A stretch of 36,286 nt of DNA, taken from positions 1-36,286 of the forward strand of contig JAKCDU010000035.1 in assembly GCA_021838445.1 (NCBI GenBank), read 5' to 3'. The DNA is from Actinomycetes bacterium (GTDB taxonomy: Bacteria > Actinomycetota > Acidimicrobiia > Acidimicrobiales > Palsa-688). The position numbers were made by a program, and so were the translations under genes. Position 1 is the stretch's first letter. The number at the start of each line of letters is the position of its first letter. Positions 1,258 through 34,165 of this stretch are shown here, piece by piece. The notes below the pieces were generated by a model, which saw only the letters and a list, made by a program, of their open reading frames with translations, was not told where the DNA came from and did no database searches.

Positions 1258-1637
1258 CGGAACCGCTCGGTCCGGATGGTCACCATACGCTCGATCCGGC
1301 TCCAAGCCGACAGGCCAGGAAGGAACTCCGGGCTTTGCGCCCGCACCAGGAGCACCACCTGTTGGGCATCCACCTCCTCCCACACGAAGCTCAGATGGGA
1401 GGACCCGAAGGTGCCGAGCTGGCCCCGGGCCGCGGCTTCGGCGGCGCCCACCTCGAGGGCCGGGCTCGGCGCCGTCGCCACGGACTCGGCCGCCCGCGTA
1501 GCAGCCGCGGTGAGGGCCGACTCGGCGTAGAGGCGGACGATCAGCTGGGTGGCGAAGAGGAGCAGCACCATGAGGATCAGGAAGCCCACGATGGTGCCGA
1601 CGATGGCCGTGCCGGCGTCGGGTCGACGAGCGCCCAC
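1254..1637 (-). CDS. tadE: TadE-family pseudopilin
   Basis: The 127-residue product has a short N-terminal head, then GTAIVGTIVGFLILMVLLLF, one continuous membrane helix of the TadE type, followed by an Ala-rich amphipathic helix (AESALTAAATRAAESVA). TadE proteins are pseudopilins processed by the prepilin peptidase and needed for Flp pilus assembly. The gene starts 3 nt after the stop of the prepilin-like gene and overlaps the next gene. No prepilin peptidase gene is visible in the window, so it must be encoded elsewhere if processing occurs. Confidence 0.72.
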   Translation of the reverse strand: MGARRPDAGTAIVGTIVGFLILMVLLLFATQLIVRLYAESALTAAATRAAESVATAPSPALEVGAAEAAARGQLGTFGSSHLSFVWEEVDAQQVVLLVRAQSPEFLPGLSAWSRIERMVTIRTERFR

Positions 1638-1640
1638 GAT

Positions 1641-1859
1641 TCAACAGCTGGTGGTGCTCTGTCCTATGCAGTTGACCTGCTGGTTCACATGGGACGAGGC
1701 GTGCTGGAAGGTGGCGTTGAACGCCACCCACATCCCCACCCCGAGGAAGGCCATGACGAGCACAGCAATGGCCGCCGAGATGACTCCTTCGCCCCGCTCG
1801 TCCCGCTTGGGTGTGACCCCCCGATCCGGTCCGTCCACCGCTTCTGGATGCTCATTCAT
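1641..1859 (-). CDS. Small prepilin-like membrane protein (Flp-type)
   Basis: This is a 72-residue protein. A hydrophilic acidic leader of about 24 residues ends in RGEGVISAAIAVL and is followed by one hydrophobic helix (to about residue 47) and a short Cys-containing tail (C63 and C72). Length and layout fit a Flp pilin or minor pilin; the Gly-Glu junction before the hydrophobic helix resembles a prepilin cleavage site, but the typical Glu-Tyr of Flp pilins is not seen. It has an excellent ribosome site (GGAGGAGGT at 1864-1872, minus strand) and its own upstream motif at 1888-1907, which suggests strong separate expression, as expected for a major pilin. The two cysteines could form a disulfide outside the cell. 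Confidence 0.55.
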   Translation of the reverse strand: MNEHPEAVDGPDRGVTPKRDERGEGVISAAIAVLVMAFLGVGMWVAFNATFQHASSHVNQQVNCIGQSTTSC

Positions 1860-1887
1860 CTCGACCTCCTCCGGGTTGAATGAAACC

Positions 1888-1907
1888 TACTGAAACTACA
1901 TCGATGT
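1888..1907 (-). promoter_or_regulatory. Upstream motif of the prepilin-like gene, shared with tadA
   Basis: On the + strand the site reads TACTGAAACTACATCGATGT; on the coding strand it contains the perfect palindrome ACATCGATGT followed by TAGTTT, a possible -10 element (TANNNT). The same element with 16 of 20 identical bases lies at 5078-5097 before tadA. No good -35 box stands 17 nt upstream, so an activator or alternative sigma factor is possible. Confidence 0.45.
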
Positions 1908-1927
1908 GTTCTACCCTCCACACTGAA

Positions 1928-2836
1928 TCAGGCGTTGGCGAAGGAGTGCAGGGCGGCGAGGAAAGGGACGGCCAAGAGAATGGCTCCCGGAACGAGCGTG
2001 GCGACCGTCACCGGCACCCAGACCTGCTGAGCCCGGCGCTCGATCCTCTCCACCGTTCGCCGCTGCAGGTCCCGCCTCGCCGCCCGAGCCTCGGCCGACA
2101 CCAACCGGCCGAGATCCGCCGACTCGGCGTGCAGGGCCAGCACCGCGACCAGACGCCGCACCGGTTCCACCCCGACCCGGTCGGCCCATTCGCCCAAAGC
2201 ATCGGCCTCGCGCAGTCCCTGCTGAACCCGATTTGCCACTTCCTGCAGGTCCCGGGCCACACAGCCGCGTCCCCTGGCCGCCAGCCGCCCCAGAGCCGAC
2301 CCGACGGAGTACCCGGCGTTGAGGAGCATGGCCAACTGCTCAGCCATCACCGGCAGTTCCTCGGCGGTGAGACGCTGCCACTCCTCTGAGCGGTGGGCCA
2401 GACGCTGTTCCACCACCAAGAAAGCCAGAGTCGGCCCACCCCCCAACAGGAGCAATGCCAACGCCGCTGGAACACCCGAGGCCAGCGACAGCACTCCCGC
2501 GATCACCCCGCTGGCCGCCACCAGGGCGGCCTGGCGGAGCCGGAACATCGTTGCTGTGAGCGGGGAATGCACGCGGGCCAACCGCCGGGCCGCCCCCTCC
2601 CCCACCCCGAAGGCGCGAGCCAATCCGTCCCCGAGGTCCTTCACGAGCGGTCCGACCACCCCGTACATCGTCGAGGACGGCTCCGCACCCGTGCGCCTGG
2701 CGGCTACGACCGCGCCCGGGTGGAACGGTCGGAGCCGTTCGGTCAGAGACGGCCGGGCCAGACGATCCCACTTCGACAGCAACAGCGCCGACCCAGCCCA
2801 AACCATTAGGCCTACCGCTACGACGAGCCGGCTCAC
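1928..2836 (-). CDS. tadC: TadC-like type II secretion F-domain membrane protein
   Basis: This is a 302-residue inner-membrane protein of the GspF/TadC group. A first helix near the N-terminus (VVAVGLMVWAGSALLL) is followed by a cytoplasmic part, a helix pair around the segment GVIAGVLSLASGVPAALALLLLGG, the conserved F-domain region (LTAEELPVMAEQLAMLLNAGYSVGSAL...) and a C-terminal hydrophobic end. With TadB it should form the membrane platform driven by TadA. I choose GTG 2836-2834, which overlaps the TadB stop (GTGA), instead of an in-frame start at 2887 that would create a 55-nt overlap. A 91-nt gap with its own promoter motif separates it from the prepilin gene downstream. Confidence 0.8.
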   Translation of the reverse strand: MSRLVVAVGLMVWAGSALLLSKWDRLARPSLTERLRPFHPGAVVAARRTGAEPSSTMYGVVGPLVKDLGDGLARAFGVGEGAARRLARVHSPLTATMFRLRQAALVAASGVIAGVLSLASGVPAALALLLLGGGPTLAFLVVEQRLAHRSEEWQRLTAEELPVMAEQLAMLLNAGYSVGSALGRLAARGRGCVARDLQEVANRVQQGLREADALGEWADRVGVEPVRRLVAVLALHAESADLGRLVSAEARAARRDLQRRTVERIERRAQQVWVPVTVATLVPGAILLAVPFLAALHSFANA

Positions 2837-3759
2837 CCGAAGACCCGGGGCGGTACCGGTAGTCGCATCAACCGACCCGACCACCACCAGCAGAGCGCCA
2901 CGGCGACCAGCCCGGCGGCCACCGCAATCTGTCCTCCAATCGTTTCATAGGCCTGGCGACCGCTGCCGATGGTGAGCCCCGCCAGGGCCATGCCGAGCGG
3001 CACCAATAGGACGAACCGGCGGGCGAACCGGACCCCGGCCAACCGGCTGTCGGCGTCGAGGCGACTCTGCAGGTCGAGGGTCCGGTCCTCGATGAGGTCG
3101 ACCAGCTTGGTGTCGAGGTCGGTCCCACCGACCTCGTGAGCCATGAGGAGGGTCTCGAATACTGCATCGGCCGTCGGATCGTCCAGACCCTCCTTCAGGA
3201 TGGAGACCGTGGCGCCAAAGTCGACGGTGAGGAGCCACTCCCGCTCAGCCGCGTCGAAGGTCGGCCGCCACTCGTCGGGCACCTTGCGGGCTGCCTCGAA
3301 CACGGCCTGTGGCACCGACCGGCCCAGGGACCCCGTTCGCAGCCGGATCTCCTCCAACACCCTCGGCCACTCGGCGATCGCTGATTCGAGCCGCATCTGG
3401 GCACGCCGGCGGTGGGCCGCTACCGGGAAAGTCCCGGCGAACACCCCGCACAGCACCGCTGGCGCCAGACCGCCGAACAGGAGCCACGCCAACAGGGCTC
3501 CGCCAGCGACTGCCACCGCAACCGCCGCTGCCACCTCCCTCCCAGCCGAGCCGGACCGGCCTCCCCGCCGGTTGGATGGACCTAACCGCTCCCCCAGCGC
3601 CGCGCCAACCGATTGACCGAGCCGACGTGGTCTTTCGGCCGTCCTCCTCCCCCGCGATCGGCGGTCGGCCCCGGTGGCCGAGGTGTATACGAGCCAACCT
3701 CCGGTCATCGCCGAGACGGCCGCGATCCCGCCGGCAGTCAAGCTCATAGGACTGGTCAC
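2833..3759 (-). CDS. tadB: TadB-like type II secretion F-domain membrane protein
   Basis: The 308-residue product has an N-terminal helix (GGIAAVSAMTGGWLVYTSA), a basic cytoplasmic loop, a helix pair (AAAVAVAVAGGALLAWLLFGGLAPAVL in outline), an F-domain core with RLRTGSLGRSVPQAVFEAA and two C-terminal membrane helices. TadB and TadC are paralogous platform proteins of Flp pilus machines. GTG 3759-3757 overlaps the tadA stop (GTGA); an alternative ATG lies 12 nt inside at 3747. The tadA-tadB-tadC order is the usual one. Confidence 0.8.
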   Translation of the reverse strand: MTSPMSLTAGGIAAVSAMTGGWLVYTSATGADRRSRGRRTAERPRRLGQSVGAALGERLGPSNRRGGRSGSAGREVAAAVAVAVAGGALLAWLLFGGLAPAVLCGVFAGTFPVAAHRRRAQMRLESAIAEWPRVLEEIRLRTGSLGRSVPQAVFEAARKVPDEWRPTFDAAEREWLLTVDFGATVSILKEGLDDPTADAVFETLLMAHEVGGTDLDTKLVDLIEDRTLDLQSRLDADSRLAGVRFARRFVLLVPLGMALAGLTIGSGRQAYETIGGQIAVAAGLVAVALCWWWSGRLMRLPVPPRVFG

Positions 3760-5066
3760 TGCTGGCCGACCAACGCCCGCAGGTCGAACCCGTGCAGCTC
3801 CAAAGCCCGGGCTGCTCTGACCGGCAGGCCCCCCGACCAGCGCAGTGGATCGCTGAAGCGTGCCCGGGCGAACACGCTGGTCGTGGTGAACGCCACGGTG
3901 CCGGCCGCGACCTGGAGGTCCTCCACAGCCAAGACCTCGGTCACCCGAAGGTCGCTCTCTCTACGGGAGCAGAACACGACCAGGTCGACCGCCTCGCTCA
4001 CCAGAGCCGACAGGGCCGACACGGTCAGCTCGGAGCCGCTTTCGGCGAGCTGGCATATGAAGCGCAGCCGGGACAGGGCTTGGCGGGCCGAGCCGGCGTG
4101 GATCGTCGTGAATCCCTGTACGCCCGACGACAGCGTCAGCAGAAGCGGCAGCGCTTCGCGGTCGCGGACCTCTCCGACTATGGCCACGTCGGGGGCCATG
4201 CGGAGAAACCCGGCCACCAGGCGGCGCAGATCCACCTCCTTGCGGTCAGCCCTAGCTGGGCGGGTCTGCATGTGGGCCACATTGGGCTGATCGATGTCGG
4301 TCTCGAACACCTCCTCGGCCACCACCACCCGTAATGCCGGGTCGAGCTCGGCAGCCAGACAGCTGAGCACGGTCGTCTTCCCCGCGCCGGGTGCGCCAGC
4401 AATGAGTATCGAAAGCCCGCTGCGCACGCAGGCGGTCAGGAAGCGGGCGGTCTGGATGTCGAGCATGCTCCTCTCGACCAACTCCCGCAGGTCCCGGTGC
4501 GCTACCCCGGAGAACTTCCGAATGTTGATCAGTAGATGGCCGTCGCGCCCGATATCGGAGTGCACGATGTGAAGGCGGGACCCATTGTCCAACTGGGCGT
4601 CCTGGAGGCCCTCGGACGGGTCGAGCTTGCGGTGCGACCGACTGGCGTCGTCGAGGATCTTGGTCAGCACCCGGACCACGTGATCGTCGTCATGGAAGAC
4701 CTCGTGGTGGTATCCACCACTGCCAGAGTGGCGCTTGCAGAAGATCGACGCCGGACCATTGATCATGATCTCCCACACGTCGGGATCGTCGAGAAGGGGC
4801 TGCAACGGCCCGTAACCGGTGAGGTTTCGCATGGCCCGCTCGACCGCCGCGTCGGGGTCGGCGATGTCCTGAGCCCTCTGACCACGGCGGTACTCGGCCC
4901 GCCAGTCGGCAACCTCCTCCACCAGCAGGTGCCGCAAACGAACACCGCCGTCGGTATCGGCCATGTCGATCCCCGCCGACTTGGCCCGATCCTGCACCGC
5001 TCGTTCGATCTCCCGCAGGGGCGATACCCAACGCTGCTCCACCCCGCCAACCAGCGTTCCCGCCAC
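3756..5066 (-). CDS. tadA: TadA/CpaF-family pilus assembly ATPase
   Basis: This is a hexameric secretion ATPase that powers Flp pilus assembly from the cytoplasm. An N-terminal helical domain with GYGPLQPLLDDPDVWEIMI is typical of CpaF. The core carries the Walker A loop GAPGAGKTT, an Asp/Glu-box region around EEVFETD, a Walker B-like segment (MAPDVAIVGEVRD) and the His-box FTTIHAGS. The length of about 437 residues is normal. A TTG at 5084 is also in frame, but it falls inside the shared upstream motif (5078-5097), so I prefer GTG 5066; GTG 5042 is a further option. It is the first gene of the operon. TadZ/CpaE, CpaB and prepilin peptidase genes are not adjacent. Confidence 0.88.
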   Translation of the reverse strand: MAGTLVGGVEQRWVSPLREIERAVQDRAKSAGIDMADTDGGVRLRHLLVEEVADWRAEYRRGQRAQDIADPDAAVERAMRNLTGYGPLQPLLDDPDVWEIMINGPASIFCKRHSGSGGYHHEVFHDDDHVVRVLTKILDDASRSHRKLDPSEGLQDAQLDNGSRLHIVHSDIGRDGHLLINIRKFSGVAHRDLRELVERSMLDIQTARFLTACVRSGLSILIAGAPGAGKTTVLSCLAAELDPALRVVVAEEVFETDIDQPNVAHMQTRPARADRKEVDLRRLVAGFLRMAPDVAIVGEVRDREALPLLLTLSSGVQGFTTIHAGSARQALSRLRFICQLAESGSELTVSALSALVSEAVDLVVFCSRRESDLRVTEVLAVEDLQVAAGTVAFTTTSVFARARFSDPLRWSGGLPVRAARALELHGFDLRALVGQQ

Positions 5067-5077
5067 TCCCGGGAATG

Positions 5078-5097
5078 TACTCAAGTTACATCAATGT
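5078..5097 (-). promoter_or_regulatory. Upstream motif of tadA, shared with the prepilin-like gene
   Basis: The + strand reads TACTCAAGTTACATCAATGT. On the coding strand ACATTGATG is followed by TAACTT, a possible -10; transcription would then start about 10 nt before GTG 5066, giving an almost leaderless message. It matches 16 of 20 bases of the site at 1888-1907. Confidence 0.45.
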
Positions 5098-5585
5098 CGG
5101 AAAGACCTTTCTCCGCTGCTCAACTGCGGCCGACCCTCGACGGCCTCAACTGAGGAGGCTGGAACCAGTTGAATACGCCCCTACGGCTCGGACACAGGAT
5201 GGCGTTGGGCCGAAGCGTACCGGGCTGGCAAGGCCGCCGTGGCCCAGGTCGCCAGGCCTTCCGACCCAAGGCATCACGGTCTCTAGCTGGCCACTTCTCG
5301 GGACGTCGACAGGTCGGTGGTGAGTGCTCTCTCCGCGGCCCCCCACCTGGCTACCCCCAGCACCCTCCCCCGACCTCATACTCGGTATGGCGTGGCAGGT
5401 GGGGCGGGATGACTACCGCCCAGGCGACGCCTTCACCGCAGACAATAACAAGGCAATAAATAGCATCAACCAGGTGCCGATTGGGGATGCTCGCTTGCTC
5501 CGCCCCACCAATCCTCCTAAGGTTCGGGTAAGAGTAGGTCTCGATCGTCAGCGTGGCGACCGGTCATCTTCAGCGGGGGGAATCA
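5098..5585. other. Divergent intergenic region between tadA and the ABC operon
   Basis: About 490 nt without a convincing gene. Short open frames here lack ribosome sites and recognisable sequence. The right part contains an AT-richer patch (around 5440-5470, with CAATAACAAGGCAATAAATAG) and TAAGGT at 5518-5523, a possible -10 for the ABC operon. No clear operator repeat is seen. Confidence 0.5.
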
Positions 5586-6878
5586 GTGGACGTAGCAGCC
5601 AGCACTACTCGGACCACAAGGTCCAGGCGGGGATCCGCCGTCACGGCGGTTTTCGGGAGCGTGGGCCTGAGCGCCTTGATGCTGTCGGCGTGCGGTTCAT
5701 CAGGTCATTCGACAGCTGGCTCAACTGGTACATCGGCGAGTGGATCCGGCGCCTCGACCACGGTAGGGCAGCAGGCTACAGGAGCCCCGATAATCGTCGG
5801 CGAGGACTGGGACAGTACCAGCGCCGACGCCGCCTTCACCGATGTAACGGCCAAGACTTTGGCCTATGCCGTCAGCTACATCAACTCCCACGGAGGAGTG
5901 CTGGGTCGCCCGATCAAGCTCATCTTCGGCAATGATCAGAGCCAGCCCTCCAATGGACCAGCCGTAACCGAGCAGCTGGTCAACTCCGGAGCCAAGTTCC
6001 TGCTGTACAACGAAGGCACTGATTACGGCTCGAAAGCTACCATAGAGAAGCTTGGCATTCCGGCCATAGGCGTCACTGATGTCGTGCCGACATTCGCCTC
6101 TCCGCCCGACAATACCTACACCTATGAGGTCGCCAGTCAATTGAGCAATTGGGCCGCGGTCTATTGCGGCGCTTGGAAGGCAACCGGCGTCAAGACTATT
6201 GGGATTATACGCGACGATTCGACGACTACCGCTGGGCTGGACAAGATCCTCTTTCCTCAGCTCCAGGGTTGCGTGAACATCACCGACATAGAGACTGCCT
6301 CGGGAAGCGCATCGGACTTAACGGCCCCTGTGGCGCGTCTGCTCGGGCATCACCCAGACGCCATTTTGGTCGCTGACCTGGGCGGTCCATTCGAAATTCT
6401 GGCACAGGATACGATTTACCAATCCGATCCCAACATCACCCGATATTCGTTGGCCACGATCGTGAACGAGCCATCTACCTGGAAGCTGGCAACCGCTGGG
6501 GCCCTCAACGGAGTGATATCAATGGGCTCGCTCAATCCCACGAATCCTCGGACGGCACAGCTCCAACAGATGCTTACGTCCGCGTACGGTTCTTCCTTCT
6601 CCATGACGGCCTTCGACGCCAATGCATGGGATGCAGTTCAGATCATGAAAGAGGCCATGGTCAACTCGGGTAACCCTGACGATCCGCAAAAGGTCAACCA
6701 GGCCATGCAAGGAATCTCTTCATACACGGCGTCGTTCGGTCAGCCTGGGTATCAGCTGACATACTCAGCTAGCAAGCACTCCGGTGCGAATGGCCTGTGT
6801 GGACTGGTATTGGAACAATTCGGCTCGAACAACCATCCGGACACTGCGTTCTCCAAGTATCAACCGTCCTGTAGCTGA
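5586..6878 (+). CDS. Liv-type ABC transporter substrate-binding lipoprotein
   Basis: This is the extracytoplasmic receptor of a branched-chain amino acid-type (HAAT) importer. The signal peptide ends in a lipobox LSAC (Cys about residue 36), followed by a Ser/Thr/Gly-rich tether and a periplasmic-binding fold beginning at PIIVGEDWDSTSADAAF, with the typical VSYINSHGGVLGRPIKLI and TAPVARLLGHHPDAILVA segments. Start GTG 5586 is preceded by a strong GGGGGG ribosome site (5575-5580); an in-frame start at 5553 lacks one. Its stop is 1 nt from the permease start. The ligand is not readable: this fold binds amino acids, amides, urea, aromatic acids and other compounds, and the P450 in the same operon argues for a hydrophobic organic substrate. 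Confidence 0.88.
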   Translation: MDVAASTTRTTRSRRGSAVTAVFGSVGLSALMLSACGSSGHSTAGSTGTSASGSGASTTVGQQATGAPIIVGEDWDSTSADAAFTDVTAKTLAYAVSYINSHGGVLGRPIKLIFGNDQSQPSNGPAVTEQLVNSGAKFLLYNEGTDYGSKATIEKLGIPAIGVTDVVPTFASPPDNTYTYEVASQLSNWAAVYCGAWKATGVKTIGIIRDDSTTTAGLDKILFPQLQGCVNITDIETASGSASDLTAPVARLLGHHPDAILVADLGGPFEILAQDTIYQSDPNITRYSLATIVNEPSTWKLATAGALNGVISMGSLNPTNPRTAQLQQMLTSAYGSSFSMTAFDANAWDAVQIMKEAMVNSGNPDDPQKVNQAMQGISSYTASFGQPGYQLTYSASKHSGANGLCGLVLEQFGSNNHPDTAFSKYQPSCS

Positions 6879-6879
6879 G

Positions 6880-7755
6880 GTGAGCGACCTTCAACTCTGG
6901 ATATCAGCAGTACAGATCGGCTGCTTTTTTGGGCTCTTGGCCCTGTCCTACTACGTCGTACTAGCCGGGACTGGATTCTTCAACTTCGCTATCGGAACCT
7001 ACGCGATGGTCGGAGGGCTATGTGCTGCGTGGCTGGTCATCAACCATAACTATCCCCTCTGGCCAGCCGTGTTGATCGCTCTGGTCGCGACCGTGGCATT
7101 GGCCGCGGTGACGGAGGTCGCGGTCGTCCGACCGGTGCAGCGCCGGTCGGAGGGAAGCGAGCTCCCGGCTCTTGTGGCCGTGACGGCCGTGCTCTTCGCG
7201 ATACAGCAGCTGGGGGGGGTCACCTTCGGATACACGACACTACCGGGCCAGAACCTATGGACTTTTCATTCCATACACCTCGGTTCATCGATAATCCTTC
7301 CATCTGCACTGGTGCTCGTGGTGACCACCGTGATCGTCTTCTTCCTGGTCGCCGCTTGGGTACGCTTCACCCGCACAGGACGCGTTCTCAGAGCGGTGGG
7401 CGACAGCCGGGAATCGGCGTCCCTGCTCGGCCTGCCTGTGGGCCGTATCCGAATCATTGGATTTGCGCTCTCGGGTCTTTTGGCTGGGACAGCGGGATTA
7501 CTCTTTGCCCCCAAGGCGGGTGTGAGTTCATCTAGCGGACTGGATTGGGCGCTGAGTGGATTCCTGGCGCTGGTGGTTGGCGGAACTGCTTCGGTGTGGG
7601 CCCCTCTGGTTGGCGGCCTCATCCTTGGCATGCTCCAGATATTCATTCCGTTCTACTTCGGTGGCACCTCCCTCCCTTATCTGCTCCTGATACTTGCCGC
7701 GGTGTTCTTTGCCTTCCGTCCACAGGGGCTCTTCGACCGCCGGGTGAGGGTATGA
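6880..7755 (+). CDS. Liv-type ABC transporter permease (LivH family)
   Basis: A very hydrophobic protein of about 291 residues with around eight membrane segments and the LivH landmarks GFFNFAIGTYAMVGG, RVLRAVGDSRESASLLGLPVGRI (cytoplasmic loop that docks the ATPase) and ALSGLLAGTAGLL. It forms half of the membrane channel. The start GTG 6880, with GAGG just before it, lies directly after the receptor gene's stop (6876-6878). An in-frame ATG at 6784 lies inside the receptor gene and is rejected. Confidence 0.88.
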   Translation: MSDLQLWISAVQIGCFFGLLALSYYVVLAGTGFFNFAIGTYAMVGGLCAAWLVINHNYPLWPAVLIALVATVALAAVTEVAVVRPVQRRSEGSELPALVAVTAVLFAIQQLGGVTFGYTTLPGQNLWTFHSIHLGSSIILPSALVLVVTTVIVFFLVAAWVRFTRTGRVLRAVGDSRESASLLGLPVGRIRIIGFALSGLLAGTAGLLFAPKAGVSSSSGLDWALSGFLALVVGGTASVWAPLVGGLILGMLQIFIPFYFGGTSLPYLLLILAAVFFAFRPQGLFDRRVRV

Positions 7756-8765
7756 AGGCCGCTGGCGACTCCTGGCTGACGCGGTTCACCTGGCGATCGT
7801 GGCTGTCAAGAGGGAATCCGACTCTTCTCGGCCTACTCGGTGCCATCGTGGTGCTGGCCTGGGTCGGGTCCAACGGCTACCGTCAGACACTTGTCATTAC
7901 CGCGGCTACGTATGCTCTTGTAGCTCTGGGAATGTATGTTCCTTTCGTCCTGGCAGGGTCGCTGTCTCTCGCTTATGGGGCCTACGCCAGTATCGGTGGA
8001 TACTCTGTAGCCCTCATATCGACCAAGACGGGGGCTCCACTTTGGGTGGGTTGGCTTATCGGACCCGTAATTGCGGCGGGTGCCGCAGTCCTATTGGGCA
8101 TAGCCACTCGTCGGCTGTCCGGCTTCTACCTCGTGGCCGTGACCTTGCTCTTCAGCGAGGCCTTCCAGAACTACATGAGCAATTCCTCGTTTGCTGGAGG
8201 CAATGCCGGTTTGGCCCGGTTCCGGGCACTCGATGTGTTCGGCTGGTTCCCTACATTCAATCAGCTGATCTTCCTCACGGCAGCGCTGGTTTGCGTGGTG
8301 GCATTCCTACTCAGCCGGTTACGCCGAAGCCCTTGGGGAGTAGTAGTCCGGTCCATGCGTGAGGTACCCACAGCGGTGGAAGCATGCGGGGCTCGCGTGC
8401 CGGTCCTGAACCTGGTCGCTCTAGCAGTAGGCGCTGCGGTCGGGGCTCTCGGGGGAGCACTCTTCACCCAGATGGTTGGATCGGTGCAGCCCGACACCTT
8501 CACGCTGAATCTGGTGTTTCTTGCTATCTTCATGCCTATCATTGGCGGGTCGGGTACGCCGTGGGGAGCAGTACTAGGCGCCCTGATCGTCGTCGAACTG
8601 ACCCTGAACCTGCCGTCGCTTCACACGAGCGGCACTCTCCTCGTAGCCTTGGGTGTGCTGGCCATCATGTTGATCGCACCTCGCGGTTTGCTCGGCTACC
8701 TCGGCGCGGCACGTAAGCGAGCATGGGACGTGATTGCGCGCAACCGGGTTGGCAATGCCCCCTGA
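7752..8765 (+). CDS. Liv-type ABC transporter permease (LivM family)
   Basis: This is the second permease, 337 residues, with membrane segments throughout and the LivM signatures LSLAYGAYASIGGYSVAL, RLSGFYLVAVTLLF and the loop RSPWGVVVRSMREVPTAVEACG, followed by PIIGGSGTPWGAVLGALIV. It pairs with the LivH-type subunit. ATG 7752 overlaps the previous stop (ATGA), so translation is coupled. Confidence 0.88.
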   Translation: MKAAGDSWLTRFTWRSWLSRGNPTLLGLLGAIVVLAWVGSNGYRQTLVITAATYALVALGMYVPFVLAGSLSLAYGAYASIGGYSVALISTKTGAPLWVGWLIGPVIAAGAAVLLGIATRRLSGFYLVAVTLLFSEAFQNYMSNSSFAGGNAGLARFRALDVFGWFPTFNQLIFLTAALVCVVAFLLSRLRRSPWGVVVRSMREVPTAVEACGARVPVLNLVALAVGAAVGALGGALFTQMVGSVQPDTFTLNLVFLAIFMPIIGGSGTPWGAVLGALIVVELTLNLPSLHTSGTLLVALGVLAIMLIAPRGLLGYLGAARKRAWDVIARNRVGNAP

Positions 8766-9543
8766 AGCGCTGCTGCTCGAGGGCCGAGGAATAGAGAAGC
8801 GTTACGGCGGAGTAGTTGCCCTGTCAGAGGTACACATACGGCTCAGCCGTGGGGAAATTCTAGGTCTTGTAGGACCGAACGGAGCGGGTAAGACGACCCT
8901 TGTGGACGTCATCTCAGGAACCCAGCGCGCCAACGCAGGGACCCTCGAAGTGCTCGGAAACCGCCTTCATGGGCCAGCTTCGCGCCGGTCCAGGCTCGGG
9001 CTTGCCCGGACCTTCCAGTATCCACAGCTAGCCCTCGATCTGACCCTCGAGGAGAACCTGATAGTCGGGCGGGTAGCCGGCCGGCATCGGTCTGCGATCG
9101 GGATGGTTTCCAGCGCGTTCCGGGGTGCATTCTGGAGAACTGATCCCGAAGACCTGCGTGTCGTCCGAGCCATCGCCGACGAACTGGGCATCGACCGCCT
9201 CGAGCGGGTGACACGGGATCTGACCCTTGGTGAACAGCGTCTCCTCGAAGTTGGCCGCGCCTTGGCGCAGGAACCGCTCGTCATGCTGCTGGACGAGCCC
9301 TTTGCGGGATCCGACGCTGCCGGCGTACTGGGTATCGCCGAGGTGATCCGGACGGTGCAGGGGCGTGGGCACGGCATAATCCTCGTGGACCACAACGTCG
9401 ATCTTGTCTCGTCGCTAGCAGATCGGATGATGTTGATCGATCGGGGCACAGTGGCTTTCGACGGCGATCCTCTCAGCTGTATCGCCAGCCCACAAATGCG
9501 ACAGGTCTATTTCGGTGGAGAGGAGTTCCAAAGTGCCACATGA
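8755..9543 (+). CDS. Liv-type ABC transporter ATPase (LivG family)
   Basis: A 262-residue cytoplasmic ATPase with Walker A GPNGAGKTT, a Q-loop at TFQYPQL, a signature replaced by LTLGEQRLLEVGRAL (LivG proteins have a variant LSGGQ), Walker B VMLLDEP and H-loop VDHNVD. It energises the importer together with the LivF-type subunit. ATG 8755 lies 11 nt inside the permease gene, consistent with coupling. The family-wide insertion between the Q-loop and the signature, long in LivG, is present (residues about 98-140). Confidence 0.9.
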   Translation: MPPEALLLEGRGIEKRYGGVVALSEVHIRLSRGEILGLVGPNGAGKTTLVDVISGTQRANAGTLEVLGNRLHGPASRRSRLGLARTFQYPQLALDLTLEENLIVGRVAGRHRSAIGMVSSAFRGAFWRTDPEDLRVVRAIADELGIDRLERVTRDLTLGEQRLLEVGRALAQEPLVMLLDEPFAGSDAAGVLGIAEVIRTVQGRGHGIILVDHNVDLVSSLADRMMLIDRGTVAFDGDPLSCIASPQMRQVYFGGEEFQSAT

Positions 9544-10303
9544 GCTCCGTGTCCAAGGGCTGACTGTTCGGTATGGGCATGCAACCGCCGTCTCGGGGGT
9601 TTCGCTTTCGGCGACGGGCGGGTCGGTCACTGCTCTCGTAGGGCCGAATGGAGCGGGGAAGTCGAGCACGCTACTGAGCATTTATGGGTCCGTAGAATCC
9701 GAAGGCGCGATTGCCGTCGACGGTGAGGACATGAGTCGTCTGACGCCTGCAGCCCGGGCTCGCCGGGGGATCGCGGTGGTTCCACAGGGCCGGCGCCTCT
9801 TCCCGCGTCTCAGCGTGCGGGACAATCTGAGGGTGATGGCCGAGACCCTGAAACTGCCGGGCCAGGCCGTCGAAACGGCTCTCGATCGATTCCCCAATCT
9901 CAAGGAGCGGGCCCGGGTACCAGCCGGCGTTCTTTCTGGAGGGGAACAACAGATGCTCGTCGTGTCTCGTGCTCTCATGGGCACACCCAGAGTCCTGCTT
10001 CTGGACGAGATGATGACCGGCCTGGCCCCCCGCATTGTCCACGAGTTGGCAGCCACGGTTAGGGACTTGGCACGCGACGGCGTAGCGATTCTGCTCGCTG
10101 AGCCCGCCATGGGGATTCTGAGCGCCTCCGTCACCCGCGGCTACGTCTTGATCCGGGGCGAGATAGTAGCTTCCGAAGAGGAGGGGGGTCGGGCGCTCGA
10201 GCAGGCCTACCAGGGCGCTCTGGGCATGCAAGTCGGGTCCGCCGGCGACGGCGTAGATGCATCTGGCCCGTTTGAGCAAGCAATAAAGGCAGATGGTCAA
10301 TGA
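9533..10303 (+). CDS. Liv-type ABC transporter ATPase (LivF family)
   Basis: The second ATPase, 256 residues: Walker A GPNGAGKSS, Q-loop VVPQGRRLFPRLSV, signature LSGGEQQMLVVSRAL and Walker B VLLLDEMMTGLAP. In the H-loop the usual LivF sequence LLVEQN is changed to LLAEPA. The chosen GTG 9533 has GAGGAG 8 nt upstream; the in-frame GTG 9515 would give a longer overlap with livG. The C-terminus extends about 25 residues past the normal LivF end and overlaps the start of the P450 gene by 4 nt. Confidence 0.9.
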   Translation: MPHELRVQGLTVRYGHATAVSGVSLSATGGSVTALVGPNGAGKSSTLLSIYGSVESEGAIAVDGEDMSRLTPAARARRGIAVVPQGRRLFPRLSVRDNLRVMAETLKLPGQAVETALDRFPNLKERARVPAGVLSGGEQQMLVVSRALMGTPRVLLLDEMMTGLAPRIVHELAATVRDLARDGVAILLAEPAMGILSASVTRGYVLIRGEIVASEEEGGRALEQAYQGALGMQVGSAGDGVDASGPFEQAIKADGQ

Positions 10304-11532
10304 GCAGTCAGGATGGCTCCGAATACGACCCGATGGCGCCCGCGACTCTTGCGGATCCCTTTAGCGCCCATACGCTTCTGAGGGAGAACTGCCCAGTTCA
10401 TTATTATGCCGGCTTTGGAGATCGGGGCTTCTTCACCCTTTCCCGCTACGACGACGTGGTGGATCTGTTTCGCAACCTCGAGCGCTGGTCTGGAGAGTTC
10501 GGACAAGGGCCCATCTACTACAAGGAGGGCGGCCTACGGTCGGACCCTCCCGAGCACACCGTCTACCGGCGGCTAGTCACGAGGTCCATGCCGGCCCGCC
10601 GCGTGCCGGCAATGGAGGCGGAACTGCGTCTCATCGCTGAAGGACTGGTGGACAGCATCGCCCAACGCGGGGAAGGCGACCTGATCCGGGATTTCGCCAT
10701 GCCACTGCCGGTGATCGCCATCTCCCGGATGTTGGGTGTTCCCCCAGAGATGGGAGACGAGTTCAAGGCGTGGTCGGACGAGTTCATGGCCGGGCAGAAT
10801 GCGTCCGACCCGGCAGTGCAGGGGCGGGCGAGAGCCAAAATCGATGGCTTCTTCAGCACCGAACTGGAGCGGCGACGGAAACTTCTCTCATCGGTGCCGG
10901 CCGGGGTGGATCCTGTTGAATCAGTTCTCCCAGACGACATCCTCACCGCAGTCATGCTGTATGAGAGTGATGGTCGGCACTTCACGGACCGAGAACTGCT
11001 GCCCCTCCTGTTGCTGTTGTTGGTCGGTGGAAACGAGACGACCACGTCGCTGATCGGCAGTCTGGTTCGACGCCTTCTCGAGCTTGGCCTCTGGGAAAAG
11101 GTCATTCGAGACAAGAGCCTGTGGGATGTGGCGATCGAAGAGTCTCTGCGCTACGACCCTCCGGTCCAGGGCTTGTTCCGCACGGCTCGCGGCGAGCAGA
11201 GCCTCCACGGCGTGACCATTCCATCTGACGCGAAGGTGCAGGGCCTCTTCTCATCTGCCAACCGGGATCCTGCTGTTTGGGACGATCCGGATACCTTCCG
11301 GCTAGACCGCGATCTAGATCATCTTCGAGCTACGCACACGTCCTTCGGGGTAGGAATCTGGTTCTGTCCGGGCGCCGCCCTGGCCCGGCGCGAGGCTCGC
11401 CTTGCCCTGGAAGTGCTCGGAAGCCGACTTCCCAACCTACGACTCAATGGGCCTGACGAACGCGTCGCAAGCTTCATGATGTGGGGTCCTCAGAGCCTCC
11501 CAGTTGCCTGGGACGTCCCCGAGCGGGACTAA
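10300..11532 (+). CDS. Cytochrome P450 monooxygenase
   Basis: A soluble bacterial-type P450 of 410 residues with all hallmarks: an I-helix oxygen-activation motif GGNETT (about 243-248; Gly-Gly-Asn instead of the usual Ala-Gly-x), the ExxR pair in EESLR (281-284), and the heme loop FGVGIWFC with Cys 356 as the iron ligand followed by GAALARREARLAL. It hydroxylates or otherwise oxidises a small hydrophobic molecule; the substrate cannot be read. The ATG overlaps the livF stop (ATGA), so it is the last gene of the importer operon. No ferredoxin or reductase gene is nearby, so electrons must come from partners encoded elsewhere. Confidence 0.93.
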   Translation: MSSQDGSEYDPMAPATLADPFSAHTLLRENCPVHYYAGFGDRGFFTLSRYDDVVDLFRNLERWSGEFGQGPIYYKEGGLRSDPPEHTVYRRLVTRSMPARRVPAMEAELRLIAEGLVDSIAQRGEGDLIRDFAMPLPVIAISRMLGVPPEMGDEFKAWSDEFMAGQNASDPAVQGRARAKIDGFFSTELERRRKLLSSVPAGVDPVESVLPDDILTAVMLYESDGRHFTDRELLPLLLLLLVGGNETTTSLIGSLVRRLLELGLWEKVIRDKSLWDVAIEESLRYDPPVQGLFRTARGEQSLHGVTIPSDAKVQGLFSSANRDPAVWDDPDTFRLDRDLDHLRATHTSFGVGIWFCPGAALARREARLALEVLGSRLPNLRLNGPDERVASFMMWGPQSLPVAWDVPERD

Positions 11533-11691
11533 CCAACCGAAGATGCCGACAGAACGACGGACGAGTTCGTGCTCGAGTAGCGACCCTATTTAGCTAACCA
11601 CCTGAGGCATTCCGCACCCGCCAGCTGAACCACGGCAGAGCGACGAAACTCGGACCAACACGACGCCCCGTGATCCTGGTCGATGCAGGAT

Positions 11692-12075
11692 TCAGGTCGA
11701 CCGTCTGAACGACACACCGCCGGCGACTGCCGCCCACTCGAACGAGGGTCCCGACGCCGCCAGCAGGAACGTGGTCATGATCCCCTCCTCGTCGATCTCA
11801 CCGCACCACACGGTCACCGACTTGGGGGCTGGCCACTCGAGCAACGTACCTACGACACCGCTACGGCCACCGGGTCGGACCACGCACGTGCCGCGCAGCT
11901 CGTAGGGCCGGTAGCTGGTTCCGTCCGCAGCGAAACGGACCGTTCCAGTGACCCTTCCGTCCGGGTAACGCAGAAGGTCGATGGCCGTGCCCCGCTCGTT
12001 GACCCAGTGACCCGTCGGCCTGCAGTCCACCGCCTCCAGATCGTCCATCCGGTGTGGGTCGCCGATCCCGGTCAT
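11692..12075 (-). CDS. Divergent avidin/streptavidin-family protein
   Basis: The 127-residue product aligns by eye along the whole avidin barrel: CRPTGHWVNERGT (avidin/streptavidin TGxWxNxxGS), DGRVTGTV, ELRGT, GTLLEW, SVTVWCGEI (streptavidin SATTWSGQY), TTFLLA (TQWLLT) and FEWAAVAGGVSF (AWKSTLVGHDTF). Biotin contacts kept: Asn26, Thr30 (for Ser27), Trp81, Ser86, Thr88, Trp90, Trp114. Changed: Val46 for Tyr43, Phe103 for Trp108 and Val121 for Asp128, so biotin binding is doubtful and another ligand is possible. There is no signal peptide, so it is likely cytoplasmic, unlike secreted avidins. ATG 12075 or ATG 12048 may be the start. It lies downstream of, and on the same strand as, a small unknown gene. 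Confidence 0.65.
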   Translation of the reverse strand: MTGIGDPHRMDDLEAVDCRPTGHWVNERGTAIDLLRYPDGRVTGTVRFAADGTSYRPYELRGTCVVRPGGRSGVVGTLLEWPAPKSVTVWCGEIDEEGIMTTFLLAASGPSFEWAAVAGGVSFRRST

Positions 12076-12127
12076 TGGGGCACCAGTCTCGGGCCTTTAG
12101 ACCCTCCCCGAACAAGGTCTTAAGTCC

Positions 12128-12424
12128 CTAATTTCTCTCGAGGACTCCGTTGGCACCGCCCAATTCGCTCAAAGCCTGAGCTAACGCCGCCCGCAACCGC
12201 TGGGCGCCTTCGACGGACAGGTGCGCCACCTGTCCGTAGCCGGGGCGACCCAACTCCTCCAGCGTGAGGTCGATGCGGATGTCGGCGCAGTCGGGACAGT
12301 CGTCGCTGATGTTCACGACCCACGTCGACTGGGCCTTGTCGCTGTCCTCGGCGTCGGGATGGTCGTCTCGGCCGTACTGGATGAGCTTCTTCACTCGGGA
12401 GAGCATAGGTTGCCAACTACGCAC
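12128..12424 (-). CDS. Small protein of unknown function
   Basis: I do not recognise this protein of up to 98 residues. It is soluble, acidic in the middle (DDHPDAEDSD), and has a CPDC pair (about residues 43-46) in the sequence SDDCPDCADIRIDLTLEELG, which could bind a metal or form a disulfide. It ends in an Ala/Leu-rich helix (GAQRLRAALAQALSELG). GTG 12424 and ATG 12406 are possible starts. The upstream 20 nt are AT-rich and shared with the divergent pseudokinase gene. A weak hairpin (12096-12123) follows it before the avidin-like gene, so the two may or may not be co-transcribed. Confidence 0.6.
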   Translation of the reverse strand: MRSWQPMLSRVKKLIQYGRDDHPDAEDSDKAQSTWVVNISDDCPDCADIRIDLTLEELGRPGYGQVAHLSVEGAQRLRAALAQALSELGGANGVLERN

Positions 12425-12444
12425 TTTCTATATATTTTCATGTC
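12425..12444. promoter_or_regulatory. AT-rich divergent promoter core (TATATATT)
   Basis: In very GC-rich surroundings, TATATATT (12429-12436) is the only AT-rich core between two divergent genes. On the + strand TATATT ends 8 nt before ATG 12445, the spacing expected of a -10 box driving a leaderless message. The same palindromic bases can serve as a -10 on the other strand. Confidence 0.5.
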
Positions 12445-13599
12445 ATGTTGATTGAGACGGGTTCCGACACGGTGACGAAGGTGGGGCATACCGCTGCCGA
12501 GCGGGGGCGCCTGGCGGCGGAGGCGGCAGTGCTCGAATCCCTGGTCCATCCCGGGGTCGTCTCCGTCGTCGCGGCGGATCGCCGCGGGGGCGGGGTCGAG
12601 CGGCTCACGCTGCGCCGGATCCCGGGCGCAACCCTCGGCGAGTTGCCGGCCGCCCCGCTGCAGACCGTCGCCGCTTGGGGCGCCGCCATCGCCACCATCG
12701 TCGCCGACATCCACGATCTCGGCTTCGCCCACGGAACGCTCGGCCCCGAGCACGTCGTGATCGACGGGGACGGCCGTCCGGTGCTGTGCGGCTTCGCCGA
12801 CGCCCAGCGGCTCGGCGGCTGCGCCAACCCTGACCGGTTGGCATCCGAGGACACCGCGGCCATCGCCCGCCTGGTCTTGGATCGCGCCCCCGCTCTGCGC
12901 GGCCGCGAAAGGCGGACCATCGCGCGCTACGCCGACGGCCCCCACCGGCCACGGCGAAGGGGTCTCGGGTCGGCCCGGAGTCTGGCCCGAGACCTGGTGC
13001 GGGTGGTACCCGACGCTCGACTCGCCGCCGCTGCCGAGGAGATCGACCCGGCGGGGCCAGCCAAGTTGGCGGAATCCGAGGTGCTGCCAGCCGAGCTGAC
13101 CGAGCGCGAGGCGCGGCCCTCCGGCCGGGGGACGGGCCGCGAGATCGGGACCCACGATGGTTGGGGTCGCCGCATGACGTCTACCCGGCGACGTCGATGG
13201 CGCTTCGACCGCCGTTCCGGTGCGCTGGGGGCTCTGACCGGATCGGTGCTCGCCGCATCGGTGGGGCTCCTGTTCGGTCTCTCCCACGCCGCGCCGGCGC
13301 CGGCGACACCGGCCGACAGCTACGTGCTCAACGTGGCCTCCAACCAGGCCGTGGTCTCAGTCACGGGACGCTGGACCTGTGGACCGTCGCGACCGGCCGT
13401 GCTCGACACCTCGAGCGGATCGCTCTGGTTGTTCGACCGCTGGCCGACCCCGGGGGAGCGGCTGGCCGCCCGGTTGGTCGAGCGGGTCTCTGACGCCACC
13501 GGTCTCGGTGTGGTGTCAGGTCCCGGTCGCTGCGACCGGTTGGTGGTCCTTGGGCCGTCCGGCGGCTACCTCGACGTCAAGGTGTCCCCGGCGCGGTGA
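12445..13599 (+). CDS. Membrane-anchored protein-kinase-like protein (pseudokinase)
   Basis: The N-terminal half (about residues 1-185) resembles a Ser/Thr kinase: TKVG with Lys12 (beta-3 Lys), EAAVLESLVHPGVV (helix C), and a catalytic-loop-like HGTLGPEHVVID. However, the HRD motif is HGT, the Mg-binding Asn is His103, and DFG is replaced by GFA (about 116-118), so catalysis is unlikely. A long Ala/Glu/Arg linker leads to a basic stop-transfer signal and one membrane helix (GALGALTGSVLAASVGLLFGL), then an extracytoplasmic domain of about 100 residues with two cysteines (WTCGPS and GRCDRL). It may sense or bind something outside the cell. It overlaps the LysM gene by 4 nt. Confidence 0.7.
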   Translation: MLIETGSDTVTKVGHTAAERGRLAAEAAVLESLVHPGVVSVVAADRRGGGVERLTLRRIPGATLGELPAAPLQTVAAWGAAIATIVADIHDLGFAHGTLGPEHVVIDGDGRPVLCGFADAQRLGGCANPDRLASEDTAAIARLVLDRAPALRGRERRTIARYADGPHRPRRRGLGSARSLARDLVRVVPDARLAAAAEEIDPAGPAKLAESEVLPAELTEREARPSGRGTGREIGTHDGWGRRMTSTRRRRWRFDRRSGALGALTGSVLAASVGLLFGLSHAAPAPATPADSYVLNVASNQAVVSVTGRWTCGPSRPAVLDTSSGSLWLFDRWPTPGERLAARLVERVSDATGLGVVSGPGRCDRLVVLGPSGGYLDVKVSPAR

Positions 13600-14600
13600 G
13601 AGCGACGGCGCGCCGCTTCGCCATCGCCGCCAGCGCCACCGTGGCGTTGTGGCTGGCCGGAAAGGCGGCCCTCCCACTCCCTCCCGTCGCCCACCCTCGC
13701 CTCATCGGCCGGTGGTGGAGCCAGCTGGCCCCGGCCGTCGCCTGGTTCGGTGCCCTTCGGGGCCTACTGATCGCGATCGGCCTCGCCGCCAGCGGGCTGT
13801 CCATGGCGTCGCTGCTCCTGGCCGCGCTGATCGGCGCGGGCCGGCGCGGCAGCCGGGTAGCCGCTTTGGGCACCGATCTCCTGGCCGGGTGGGGGCGGGT
13901 GGCCGGCGTCCGCACGGTGCTACGGCTGATCCTCGGCATCGCGGGACCCGGGGTGGCGCTGGGCGCCTGCGCCGCCACCCAGGCGACCGTCGGGCCGCCC
14001 GGTTCCACCCCCGCCGAGACCGCCGTCCCGCCGGCACCGGTGATCGGCCCCGGCACGCCCGCCGCCACCACGCCCTTGGCCCCCATCCTCCAGGCACCGG
14101 CAGGGACCGCCCCGGGAGTGTGGACCCCGCCGGTCTCCCCCAGCCCCCATTCTCGGGGCCGGCCCTCGGCGTCCAGCCCGGCCCCGGCCGCCGTCGCGCC
14201 CACCGCCCCACCCACGGCCGCAGACCCGCCACCGACGCCGGCGCAACCGCGATCCTCGACCCCGCCGTCAAGGGTGGCAAGCCCCCCGTCACAGTCGCCG
14301 GCCCCGGTTGCGCCTCCTCCGGGCGCCACCGGTCCCCGGCCAGGCGCCACCTCACCACCATCCGCCACCTCCCCATCGCCCGCCGCCACCCCTTCTCCGG
14401 GCAGCTGGACGGTGAGGCCCGGTGACGACTTCTGGACCATCGCCGAATCCGTGGTCGGCGCCTCCCCATCTCCGGCAGACACCGCCGGGGTGGCCCGCTA
14501 CTGGCTACGTCTGATCCAGGCCAACCGGGCACGCCTGGCCGACCCCTCCGACCCCGACCTCCTCTTTGCCGGGCAGGTACTGGTACTGCCTCCCCCCTGA
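13596..14600 (+). CDS. LysM-domain membrane protein with long Pro-rich linker
   Basis: The N-terminus has two or three hydrophobic helices (residues about 8-30, 47-82 and 108-130), followed by a Pro/Ala/Ser/Thr-rich segment of more than 120 residues and a C-terminal LysM (WTVRPGDDFWTIAESVVG... IQANRARL ... AGQVLVLPPP). LysM binds peptidoglycan or other GlcNAc polymers, so the protein probably bridges membrane and cell wall. GTG 13596 overlaps the pseudokinase stop (GTGA), which indicates a coupled pair. The LysM is longer than the 45-residue norm, with an insertion between its helices (GASPSPADTAGVARYW). Confidence 0.78.
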   Translation: MRATARRFAIAASATVALWLAGKAALPLPPVAHPRLIGRWWSQLAPAVAWFGALRGLLIAIGLAASGLSMASLLLAALIGAGRRGSRVAALGTDLLAGWGRVAGVRTVLRLILGIAGPGVALGACAATQATVGPPGSTPAETAVPPAPVIGPGTPAATTPLAPILQAPAGTAPGVWTPPVSPSPHSRGRPSASSPAPAAVAPTAPPTAADPPPTPAQPRSSTPPSRVASPPSQSPAPVAPPPGATGPRPGATSPPSATSPSPAATPSPGSWTVRPGDDFWTIAESVVGASPSPADTAGVARYWLRLIQANRARLADPSDPDLLFAGQVLVLPPP

Positions 14601-14628
14601 CCGGCCCCGGTTGAGCCAGACTTGGCTG

Positions 14629-15219
14629 ATGAGGAGCCTCCCGCGGTGGCCGACCATCGGAGCGGCCCTCCTCACCATCACCGTCCTCATCCCGGCTCTG
14701 ACCGGCCCGGTCAACACCGCCCGCCGTTCGGCTACCCCCCCAGCTGGCGCCACCCCCCGGGGAGACCACGGCATCGCGGACCTGGTCGATCTGCGGGCCC
14801 AGACCACCGCCAGCACCACGCCCACCGTCGTGCCGACCACCGTCGCCCCGGTCATCACCGCGGCTCCCACCACGACCCCGGCCCAGCCCGCTCCGACCAC
14901 CGCCGCCCCTGCCACCACGGCCCCGTCCACCACCCTGCCCGCTCCCCTGAACGTGACGCCGGTCCTCCCCCCTCCTACCTACGCTCCTGCCCCCAGCACC
15001 ACCGCGGCTCCCACGACCACGACGACCATCGCCGGCATCGGGGACCAGTTCACCCCCGGCCCGGTCACCATCCCATTGCGTACGACCGGCACCAACGGCC
15101 ACGTCGACCCGCTCTTCGCCTGGCTGTCGGCCATCGGCTTCGCCCTCGCCCTGGTCGTCATGCTGGCCCGCTTCGTCATCACCCGTCCCGGCGGGCGCGA
15201 CCGGGCCCCCCTCCCCTGA
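14629..15219 (+). CDS. Thr/Pro-rich secreted or membrane-tethered protein
   Basis: The product of about 196 residues begins with a signal-like or anchor helix (WPTIGAALLTITVLIPAL), continues with about 110 residues of Thr/Pro/Ala repeats (clusters such as APTTTPAQPAPTTAAPATT), and ends with one membrane helix (FAWLSAIGFALALVVMLARFVI) and a basic tail. This is a wall-spanning stalk with a membrane end, and probably a partner of the LysM protein, whose stop lies 28 nt upstream. No domain is recognised. The ATG at 14629 starts at the right place for the signal helix; there is no clear ribosome site. The biased composition means length and start are less certain than usual. Confidence 0.65.
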   Translation: MRSLPRWPTIGAALLTITVLIPALTGPVNTARRSATPPAGATPRGDHGIADLVDLRAQTTASTTPTVVPTTVAPVITAAPTTTPAQPAPTTAAPATTAPSTTLPAPLNVTPVLPPPTYAPAPSTTAAPTTTTTIAGIGDQFTPGPVTIPLRTTGTNGHVDPLFAWLSAIGFALALVVMLARFVITRPGGRDRAPLP

Positions 15220-15234
15220 TCAGCCACTGATCAG
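15216..15234. terminator. Two CTGATCAG palindromes forming a hairpin after the envelope operon
   Basis: CTGATCAG occurs at 15216-15223 and 15227-15234; the two copies can pair with a 3-nt loop. The first copy includes the stop codon of the upstream gene. There is no U-tract. It may be a terminator or simply a repeated palindrome. Confidence 0.3.
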
Positions 15235-15360
15235 CCCATCGCGACAGCCGTTTCCTTCCAGCTCAATGGTCACTACTCGCCCGACGAGAATGAGCACGGC
15301 CGCCGGGAGGGGGATCGCCACGGCCGCCGGAAGCGAATGACCGCCGCCGTCGGAGGGCCT

Positions 15361-16515
15361 TCAGGCCAGCCTCACCGCCACCTCGTTGGCCAGTAGCCGG
15401 CCTCGGGAGGTGAGGACCAGGTGGTCACCGTGCAACTCGACCAGGCCGTCGAGGCTCTCGTCGGTGCCCCAGCCCGGCAGGGCCCCCTGCGGCACCCCGG
15501 CCCTGGTCCGCAGGGCCAGCTCCATCGCCTCCTGGAGCCGGGCGGGAGGTTCGAGGACCTCGGCCGCGGACTCGCCCGAGCCGCCCTGGCCGACCAGCTT
15601 CACGTAACGCTCGGGGGTGCGCACGTTCCACCAGCGGCGAGCCCGCCCCGTCCGGGGGTCCACCGAGTGGGAGTGCGCGGCGCAGCCGAGCCCCTCGTAC
15701 TCGCCCTGGCTCCAGTACAGCAGGTTGTGGCGGCACGACGATCCGGGGCGGGCCCAGTTGGAGATCTCGTACCACTCCAGCCCGGCGGCGGCCAGGCGCT
15801 GGTCGGCGAGCAGGTACTTGTCGGCCTGGTCGTCGGGATCGGGATGTCTCCCGGGCGCCGCCGCCAGGGGCGTTCCCGGCTCCACCGTGAGTCCGTAGGC
15901 GCTCACGTGGGCGGGCGCCGGGTCCAGGCCGAGCACCTGGTCCAGGGACGACGCGAAGTCGTCGACGGACTCGCCCGCCGCCCCCATGATCAGGTCGACG
16001 TTGTAGGAGTCGGCGAAGCCGGCATCGCCGGCGGCTTCCACGGCCCGCAGGACCGAGTCGGGGGCATGGTCGCGTCCGAGGCTGACGAGCACGTGGTCGA
16101 CCATCGACTGCACCCCGAACGACAGTCGGGTGACCCCCACGTCGCGGTAGCCGCGCAGCTTGTCCCGGTCCACCGACTCGGGGTTGCACTCCACGGTGAT
16201 CTCGGCGCCGGCCGCGGCCGGCACGGCGGCGAGGATGCGCCCGACGGCCCCCGGCGCCAGCAGGGACGGGGTTCCGCCCCCGAAGAACACCGACGTCGCT
16301 GGACGGGCCGGGTCCAGCCGGCGGCGGGCGGCGACCACGCACGCCTCGACGTAGGCGTCGACCAGGTGGAAGCGGTCGGTCCAGGTGGCGAAGGCGCAGT
16401 AGTCGCAGCGCCGGGTGCAGAAGGGCACGTGGACGTAGACCCCGAAGTCACCGCCCGCCGGTCGGCTGGCCGGACTCACCGGGGGCCGCCCGTGCCGCCG
16501 CCCGGACGGCTCCAC
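15361..16515 (-). CDS. hemW: HemW-like radical SAM protein (heme chaperone)
   Basis: A 384-residue radical SAM enzyme-like protein. The cluster motif is CTRRCDYC (Cys33, Cys37, Cys40), the SAM-binding FFGGGTPS follows, and the rest (ECNPESVDRDKLRGYRDVGVTRLSFGVQS, YNVDLIMG, EISNWARPGSSCRHNLLYW) is the HemW signature that separates it from HemN. HemW inserts heme into respiratory proteins; earlier annotation as coproporphyrinogen oxidase is not supported for this family. GTG 16515 is the start. It is the last gene of the hrcA-dnaJ-rsmE-hemW run; with lepA nearby this is a widely conserved neighbourhood. Confidence 0.9.
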   Translation of the reverse strand: MEPSGRRHGRPPVSPASRPAGGDFGVYVHVPFCTRRCDYCAFATWTDRFHLVDAYVEACVVAARRRLDPARPATSVFFGGGTPSLLAPGAVGRILAAVPAAAGAEITVECNPESVDRDKLRGYRDVGVTRLSFGVQSMVDHVLVSLGRDHAPDSVLRAVEAAGDAGFADSYNVDLIMGAAGESVDDFASSLDQVLGLDPAPAHVSAYGLTVEPGTPLAAAPGRHPDPDDQADKYLLADQRLAAAGLEWYEISNWARPGSSCRHNLLYWSQGEYEGLGCAAHSHSVDPRTGRARRWWNVRTPERYVKLVGQGGSGESAAEVLEPPARLQEAMELALRTRAGVPQGALPGWGTDESLDGLVELHGDHLVLTSRGRLLANEVAVRLA

Positions 16516-32984: not shown

Positions 32985-33229
32985 ACGCACCCGGCCGAGC
33001 AACATCTGAACGTCGACCAGTCGTTACATCCCGGGGGGCCAGATCTCAGCCTGTGACCACGGGCCGTCTGTCCCCCAATGCCCGGGTGCCTTCCGCAGCA
33101 AGCGCCCCGAGGCAGCGCGCCGCTAAATATGGGTCCCCAGGCCGGCGTTAGGAGACGTCGCGCCTGTGTGCTTCGGGGATGTCTCGGAAGAGTGGTATGG
33201 GATATCTCGCCTTGTAAGTTACGGCGCTG

Positions 33230-33235
33230 TACAAT
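33230..33235 (+). promoter_or_regulatory. -10 box for a leaderless AbrB-type gene (TACAAT)
   Basis: TACAAT, preceded by GCTG, ends 7 nt before ATG 33243, the distance from -10 to a transcription start. Transcription would begin at or next to the start codon. No ribosome site is seen before the ATG, which fits. A -35 box is not clear. Confidence 0.55.
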
Positions 33236-33242
33236 GCAGGAT

Positions 33243-33482: not shown

Positions 33483-33488
33483 CTCAAC

Positions 33489-33938: not shown

Positions 33939-34165
33939 CCTCCGGAGAATGGCAAGTCCTGCCTTCTCAACACGGTGAGCACGCGCCCACGAGCCGGCGA
34001 TCAGGGTTACCGGCGAGTGCGCTCGGTGCAGACATTCGGGGGCACGGGCGGGACGCCCGAGATGCCGATCTGCCCGCCGACCGACACGTCGGATTCTCGA
34101 ACGCCCGTTCTCGCGTCCCTGCACGCCTCCGAGATGGCGCGCTCTGGGCATGCCACTATGTCTCT

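Follow-up and report, generated by a model that had tools for sequence, protein, structure and literature searches.

Does a Liv-type ABC importer whose last gene overlaps the start of a cytochrome P450 gene form, together with that enzyme, a single unit that takes up an organic compound and then oxidizes it? The question is raised by the DNA studied here (the window), a stretch of 36,286 nucleotides that spans contig C19 of a draft genome of 3.99 Mb (G000) from end to end, and a sequence-only reading of the window had proposed such an import-then-oxidize unit. We propose, with a probability of about 0.6, that the six genes form a self-contained catabolic entry module, which was gained by horizontal transfer and serves the import and first oxidation of one organic compound.

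Results

Six closely packed genes

The block is encoded on the forward strand and opens with a gene for a Liv-type solute receptor (5586-6878, GTG start), a lipoprotein with the lipobox LMLSAC and a Peripla_BP_6 domain. There follow two permeases with BPD_transp_2 domains, of the LivH type (6880-7755, GTG start) and the LivM type (7752-8765, ATG start), two ATPases with ABC_tran domains, of the LivG type (8755-9543, ATG start) and the LivF type (9533-10303, GTG start; best NCBIfam match UrtE/LivF, below the cut-off), and finally the cytochrome P450 (10300-11532, ATG start, p450 domain). The LivH gene begins 1 nt past the receptor stop, and the remaining four junctions are, in order, overlaps of 4, 11, 11 and 4 nt, those of 4 nt having the sequence ATGA; both the coordinates and the arrangement, including the P450 start codon lodged on the stop of the last ATPase gene, are as the sequence-only reading had given them. 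The receptor, permease and ATPase domains all score above their Pfam gathering thresholds and place the importer in the HAAT (Liv-type) ABC superfamily. A promoter and terminator scan of the block gave results at chance level, and neither a ferredoxin nor a reductase gene lies within the six-gene operon.

The P450 matches PF00067 with 74.6 bits, its structure model (pLDDT 87) has the P450 fold, and the motifs EESLR (the ExxR site), GGNETT (the acid-alcohol pair of the I-helix) and FGVGIWFCPG (the heme loop with its cysteine) are present. The presence of GGNETT in place of AGxDT had been pointed out from the sequence; we dropped this motif as a distinguishing mark since 13 of the 74 related P450s in the genomes examined have it; being common among relatives, it gives no clue to function. 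At the position two residues before the heme cysteine, the PROSITE pattern PS00086 allows His or Arg, Lys, Pro or Thr. The residue found there is Trp in the window and in its congener G002, which lies outside the pattern, and Thr in the more distant genome G092 (FGIGITLCPG), which is allowed; it is His in all 29 of the next-closest relatives listed. The Trp is atypical, but the protein is complete in all other respects and its membership of the P450s is secure.

The solved folds nearest to the model are CYP125, CYP142 and CYP109, at about 27-32% identity over the whole chain. The sterol side-chain oxidases CYP125 and CYP142 have the closest folds (TM 0.83-0.86) and are among the closest PDB sequences; however, an identity of only 27-32% falls below the 40% customarily asked for membership of a CYP family, which places the window P450 outside both, and sterol genes are absent from the surroundings of the block. 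The fold was also considered as evidence on the substrate and set aside as weak, many CYP families matching about equally.

The pairing persists across genera

Identical six-gene order is found in three genomes (G000, G002 and G092) from two genera and two families. G002 is a second species of the window's genus, and its block (locus L009, public contig JAGWSF010000051) has the same junction types and encodes proteins about 84-92% identical to those of the window. The block of G092, a member of the other family, encodes proteins 64-82% identical to the window's (receptor about 64-65%, P450 74%, LivM 82%); in this locus (L057) a gap of some 50 nt separates LivF from the P450, so the exact overlap is dispensable. 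Within G000 itself there are 26 P450 matches and ten Liv-permease matches, and nowhere except in the window block does a member of one set come within 5 kb of a member of the other. This sole pairing, together with the order shared by three genomes of two families, argues that the adjacency goes beyond chance. Confinement of the P450 adjacency to the window, which the sequence-only reading had named as a result that would count against it, is not what we observe: the block is present in two genera and two families, and an unrelated Liv-P450 pair occurs in a third family.

Among 395 genomes of the class, the window's own P450 was alone in passing an E value of 1e-125; a receptor relative with an E value no higher than 1e-25 was present in 3 of 397 genomes of the order, and the phylum, class and order samples yielded no further close copies. 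A search for plasmid-borne copies gave no match to the receptor and only P450 matches below 40% identity. The importer clade is also represented in genomes G004 and G446, in both cases without a linked P450, which makes the P450 an optional partner.

In the third family (f35), a P450 33% identical to that of the window lies directly behind a different Liv operon, consisting of a receptor, one long permease reading frame, LivG and LivF, at a gap of about 15 nt, and of the 18 genomes with that P450 at least 11 keep this pairing. An enoyl-CoA hydratase gene stands directly before the P450 in three loci of the family (L122, L126 and L127), whereas in G152 the corresponding gene lies upstream of the Liv operon; the operon has thus seemingly been gained or lost between hydratase and P450. 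In G152 (L098, 1770-13396), two opposed Liv-type operons converge on the P450, whose end adjoins the receptor gene of the other operon. A further P450, 47% identical to the window's, is found in G136, where about 1.8 kb separate it from a Liv cluster that includes a CoA ligase gene; this locus (L064, 9579-19423) encodes the P450, a SnoaL-like protein, a TetR protein, an LLM oxidoreductase, LivF, a receptor, LivM, LivH, the CoA ligase and LivG. The neighbors of a 44% identical P450 from a gammaproteobacterial MAG (L010) are TonB receptors, MFS transporters and oxidoreductases.

An importer far from the Liv and Urt equivalogs

While LivKHMGF and UrtABCDE have the same families of receptor, two permeases and two ATPases as the window importer, every subunit of the latter scores far under the NCBIfam equivalog cut-offs, and a P450 follows. 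Against the Liv models the scores (in bits, cut-off after the stroke) are 29.7/477 for the receptor, 52.3/379 for LivH, 83/366 for LivM, 136/362 for LivG and 143.9/441 for LivF; against the Urt models they are 88.7/250.3 for UrtB, 72.5/296.2 for UrtC, 135/304.1 for UrtD and 182.5/285.8 for UrtE. The receptor sequence is distant from amino-acid receptors. In a low-identity alignment, Val takes the place of Thr102, a substrate-anchoring residue of the E. coli LIV-binding protein, and this substitution is suggestive, though only suggestive, of a ligand other than an amino acid. The imported compound is probably not an amino acid. Five receptors of the clade were found; four of them have the lipobox cysteine, and all five keep four further cysteines (194, 229, 405 and 429), which would suit two disulfides; the structure model of the receptor (pLDDT 44) is too poor for its pocket to be read.

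These data also bear on the idea that a branched-chain amino acid importer merely happens to lie upstream of a P450. The five importer subunits are all of the Liv/Urt superfamily and the genomes examined hold dozens of P450s, as a chance neighborhood would have it; yet the pairing persists at 74% P450 and 64% receptor identity at three different sites, and the equivalog scores speak against an importer of this kind, as may the Val at the anchoring position. We consider it improbable that the P450 is a bystander.

Probable separate acquisition in two congeners

The window flanks 577-5115 and 11677-16483 adjoin on contig C186 of G002, an empty site where 508 unrelated bases replace the window segment 5116-11676, whose genes have a GC content of 0.61 against 0.69-0.71 around them. 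The block copy of G002 itself is located on contig C224, at a different chromosomal site, where its neighbors are the end of a glutamine-synthetase-like gene and a gene for an IPT/TIG-repeat protein (names read from translations). The segment homologous between the window and this copy (5564-11517) comprises the six genes alone, and in both congeners the GC content of the block is 0.61, compared with 0.69-0.72 in the flanks.

Just outside the island, positions 11692-12075 of the reverse strand encode a 127-residue protein that scores 31.5 bits against Pfam Avidin (cut-off 24) and may be an avidin-like protein that binds biotin; a 92% identical copy is present at the empty site of G002. A second GC-poor stretch (0.58-0.61) occupies positions 33000-36286 at the end of the contig and contains an open reading frame (34621-35658) that matches PADLOC PDC-M28C (63 bits), a candidate defense protein.

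Synonymous divergence (dS, Nei-Gojobori) between the block copies of G000 and G002 is 0.9-1.6, values that are rough as they approach saturation, against 0.16-0.41 for flank genes, a difference of about 2 to 10 times. The dN/dS ratios of the six genes, the P450 included, are 0.03-0.09 and denote strong purifying selection. Integrase, transposase and other mobile element genes are absent from 5.1-11.7 kb, and neither end region holds matching terminal repeats or target duplications, so the segment does not qualify as an integrative mobile element. The simplest reading is that the block is a horizontal operon, probably acquired separately in the two congeners from related donors.

The two copies could instead be old paralogs: the operon would have been duplicated before the species of the genus diverged, and each lineage would have lost it from a different site, with no separate acquisition. 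Their identical GC content and junction types would agree with such a history, as would the lack of mobile element genes and target duplications; on the other hand, each genome holds a single copy, and a GC content below that of the hosts (0.69-0.72), together with the patchy spread of the receptor among genomes of the order, favors acquisition. We regard the paralogous origin as unlikely; it concerns where the block came from and is compatible with an import-then-oxidize function. Far less probable still is an assembly chimera, in which a contaminating low-GC fragment was fused into the contig. All three block-bearing genomes are drafts of at least 100 contigs and the GC steps are sharp, but the block is internal to a contig whose two flanks adjoin in the sister genome, and a diverged copy is internal to another contig in a second assembly.

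A probable degradative setting in one relative

The genes that follow the P450 in G092 encode a zinc alcohol dehydrogenase of the TIGR03989 type (NDMA-dependent family; Ns in the assembly break up the gene), an NTF2-like protein (our own reading of the sequence, which has no Pfam match) and an aldehyde dehydrogenase. On the receptor side of the block lie genes for an amidohydrolase and a class II aldolase, and then for a GntR/FCD regulator, a CoA ligase, a DUF7700 protein and an HD-domain protein. The company of the two dehydrogenases, CoA ligase, aldolase and amidohydrolase makes a catabolic role likely, and the block of G092 probably sits within a degradation cluster. The HD-domain protein (L057, 16133-16744, reverse strand) has weak similarity to PhnZ-type phosphonate oxygenases and is found beside the importer in G004 too.

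Gene order in G004 is CoA ligase, class II aldolase, amidohydrolase, HD protein, receptor (36% identity), LivH, LivM, LivG and LivF, with no P450; in G446, from another family of the phylum, receptor, LivH, LivM, LivG and LivF lead directly into a CoA ligase and an SDR. Taken with G092, these neighbors associate the importer clade with CoA-dependent degradation.

In both congeners, G000 and G002, the six genes are on their own, and no catabolic genes are linked to them. Contig C22 of G000 carries a CoA ligase-aldolase-amidohydrolase triad 47, 55 and 70% identical to that of G092, and three alcohol dehydrogenases of this genome score above the TIGR03989 cut-off. The triad was considered as a co-occurrence marker for the operon and dropped, since its amidohydrolase is also found in the operon-free genome G001; its presence is unspecific, and the link between operon and triad is one that we infer.

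The solitary state of the block in the two congeners would also fit import for salvage or signaling, with the P450 detoxifying or tailoring the compound and no growth on it. The probable degradative enzymes around the block in G092 and the linkage of the importer to CoA ligases in G004 and G446 speak against this reading, and we hold it to be unlikely.

Discussion

Our comparative data suggest a model for the catabolic entry module. The lipid-anchored receptor would capture one organic compound, probably a non-amino-acid, which the LivH/M/G/F channel would bring into the cell at the expense of ATP. The P450, presumably made from the same transcript, would then hydroxylate the imported compound, drawing electrons from redox partners whose genes lie elsewhere in the genome. 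We propose that the product is passed to resident NDMA-type alcohol dehydrogenases, aldehyde dehydrogenase, CoA ligase, class II aldolase and amidohydrolase, and so enters degradation. The notion of a single import-then-oxidize unit, first put forward from the sequence, is strengthened by the fact that just these six genes were probably acquired separately, and by the catabolic setting in G092; it is qualified by G004 and G446, where the importer does without the P450.

There are precedents for parts of this arrangement. CouPSTU of Rhodopseudomonas palustris is, like the window importer, a Liv-family ABC system; its LivK-family receptor was shown experimentally to bind coumarate and ferulate, and it provides a proven case of a non-amino-acid substrate with clustered degradation genes, although the portion of the report cited here mentions no P450 (PMC3610893). 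The window operon differs in including an oxidizing enzyme. CamABCD of Rhodococcus jostii RHA1 is an actinobacterial ABC importer dedicated to catabolic intermediates; the cited portion of that account neither mentions a P450 in the operon nor states the ABC subtype (PMC8399759). Our search of the open-access literature brought up no account of an operon that combines a Liv importer with a P450, and the self-contained six-gene package appears to be undescribed so far, its components being of known kinds.

More tentatively, the block may be a portable 'import and activate' cassette, in which a transporter and a first-step oxygenase, encoded by six overlapping genes, pass together from host to host unaccompanied by downstream genes and connect to a degradation route already present in the recipient; we see this as possible, on somewhat less than even odds. 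Many P450 and Liv-type receptor genes are orphans as to substrate, and a conserved, separately acquired pair links one of each, so that a ligand of the one is directly testable on the other. If the proposed reading is true, uptake and first oxidation can travel between genomes as one minimal unit.
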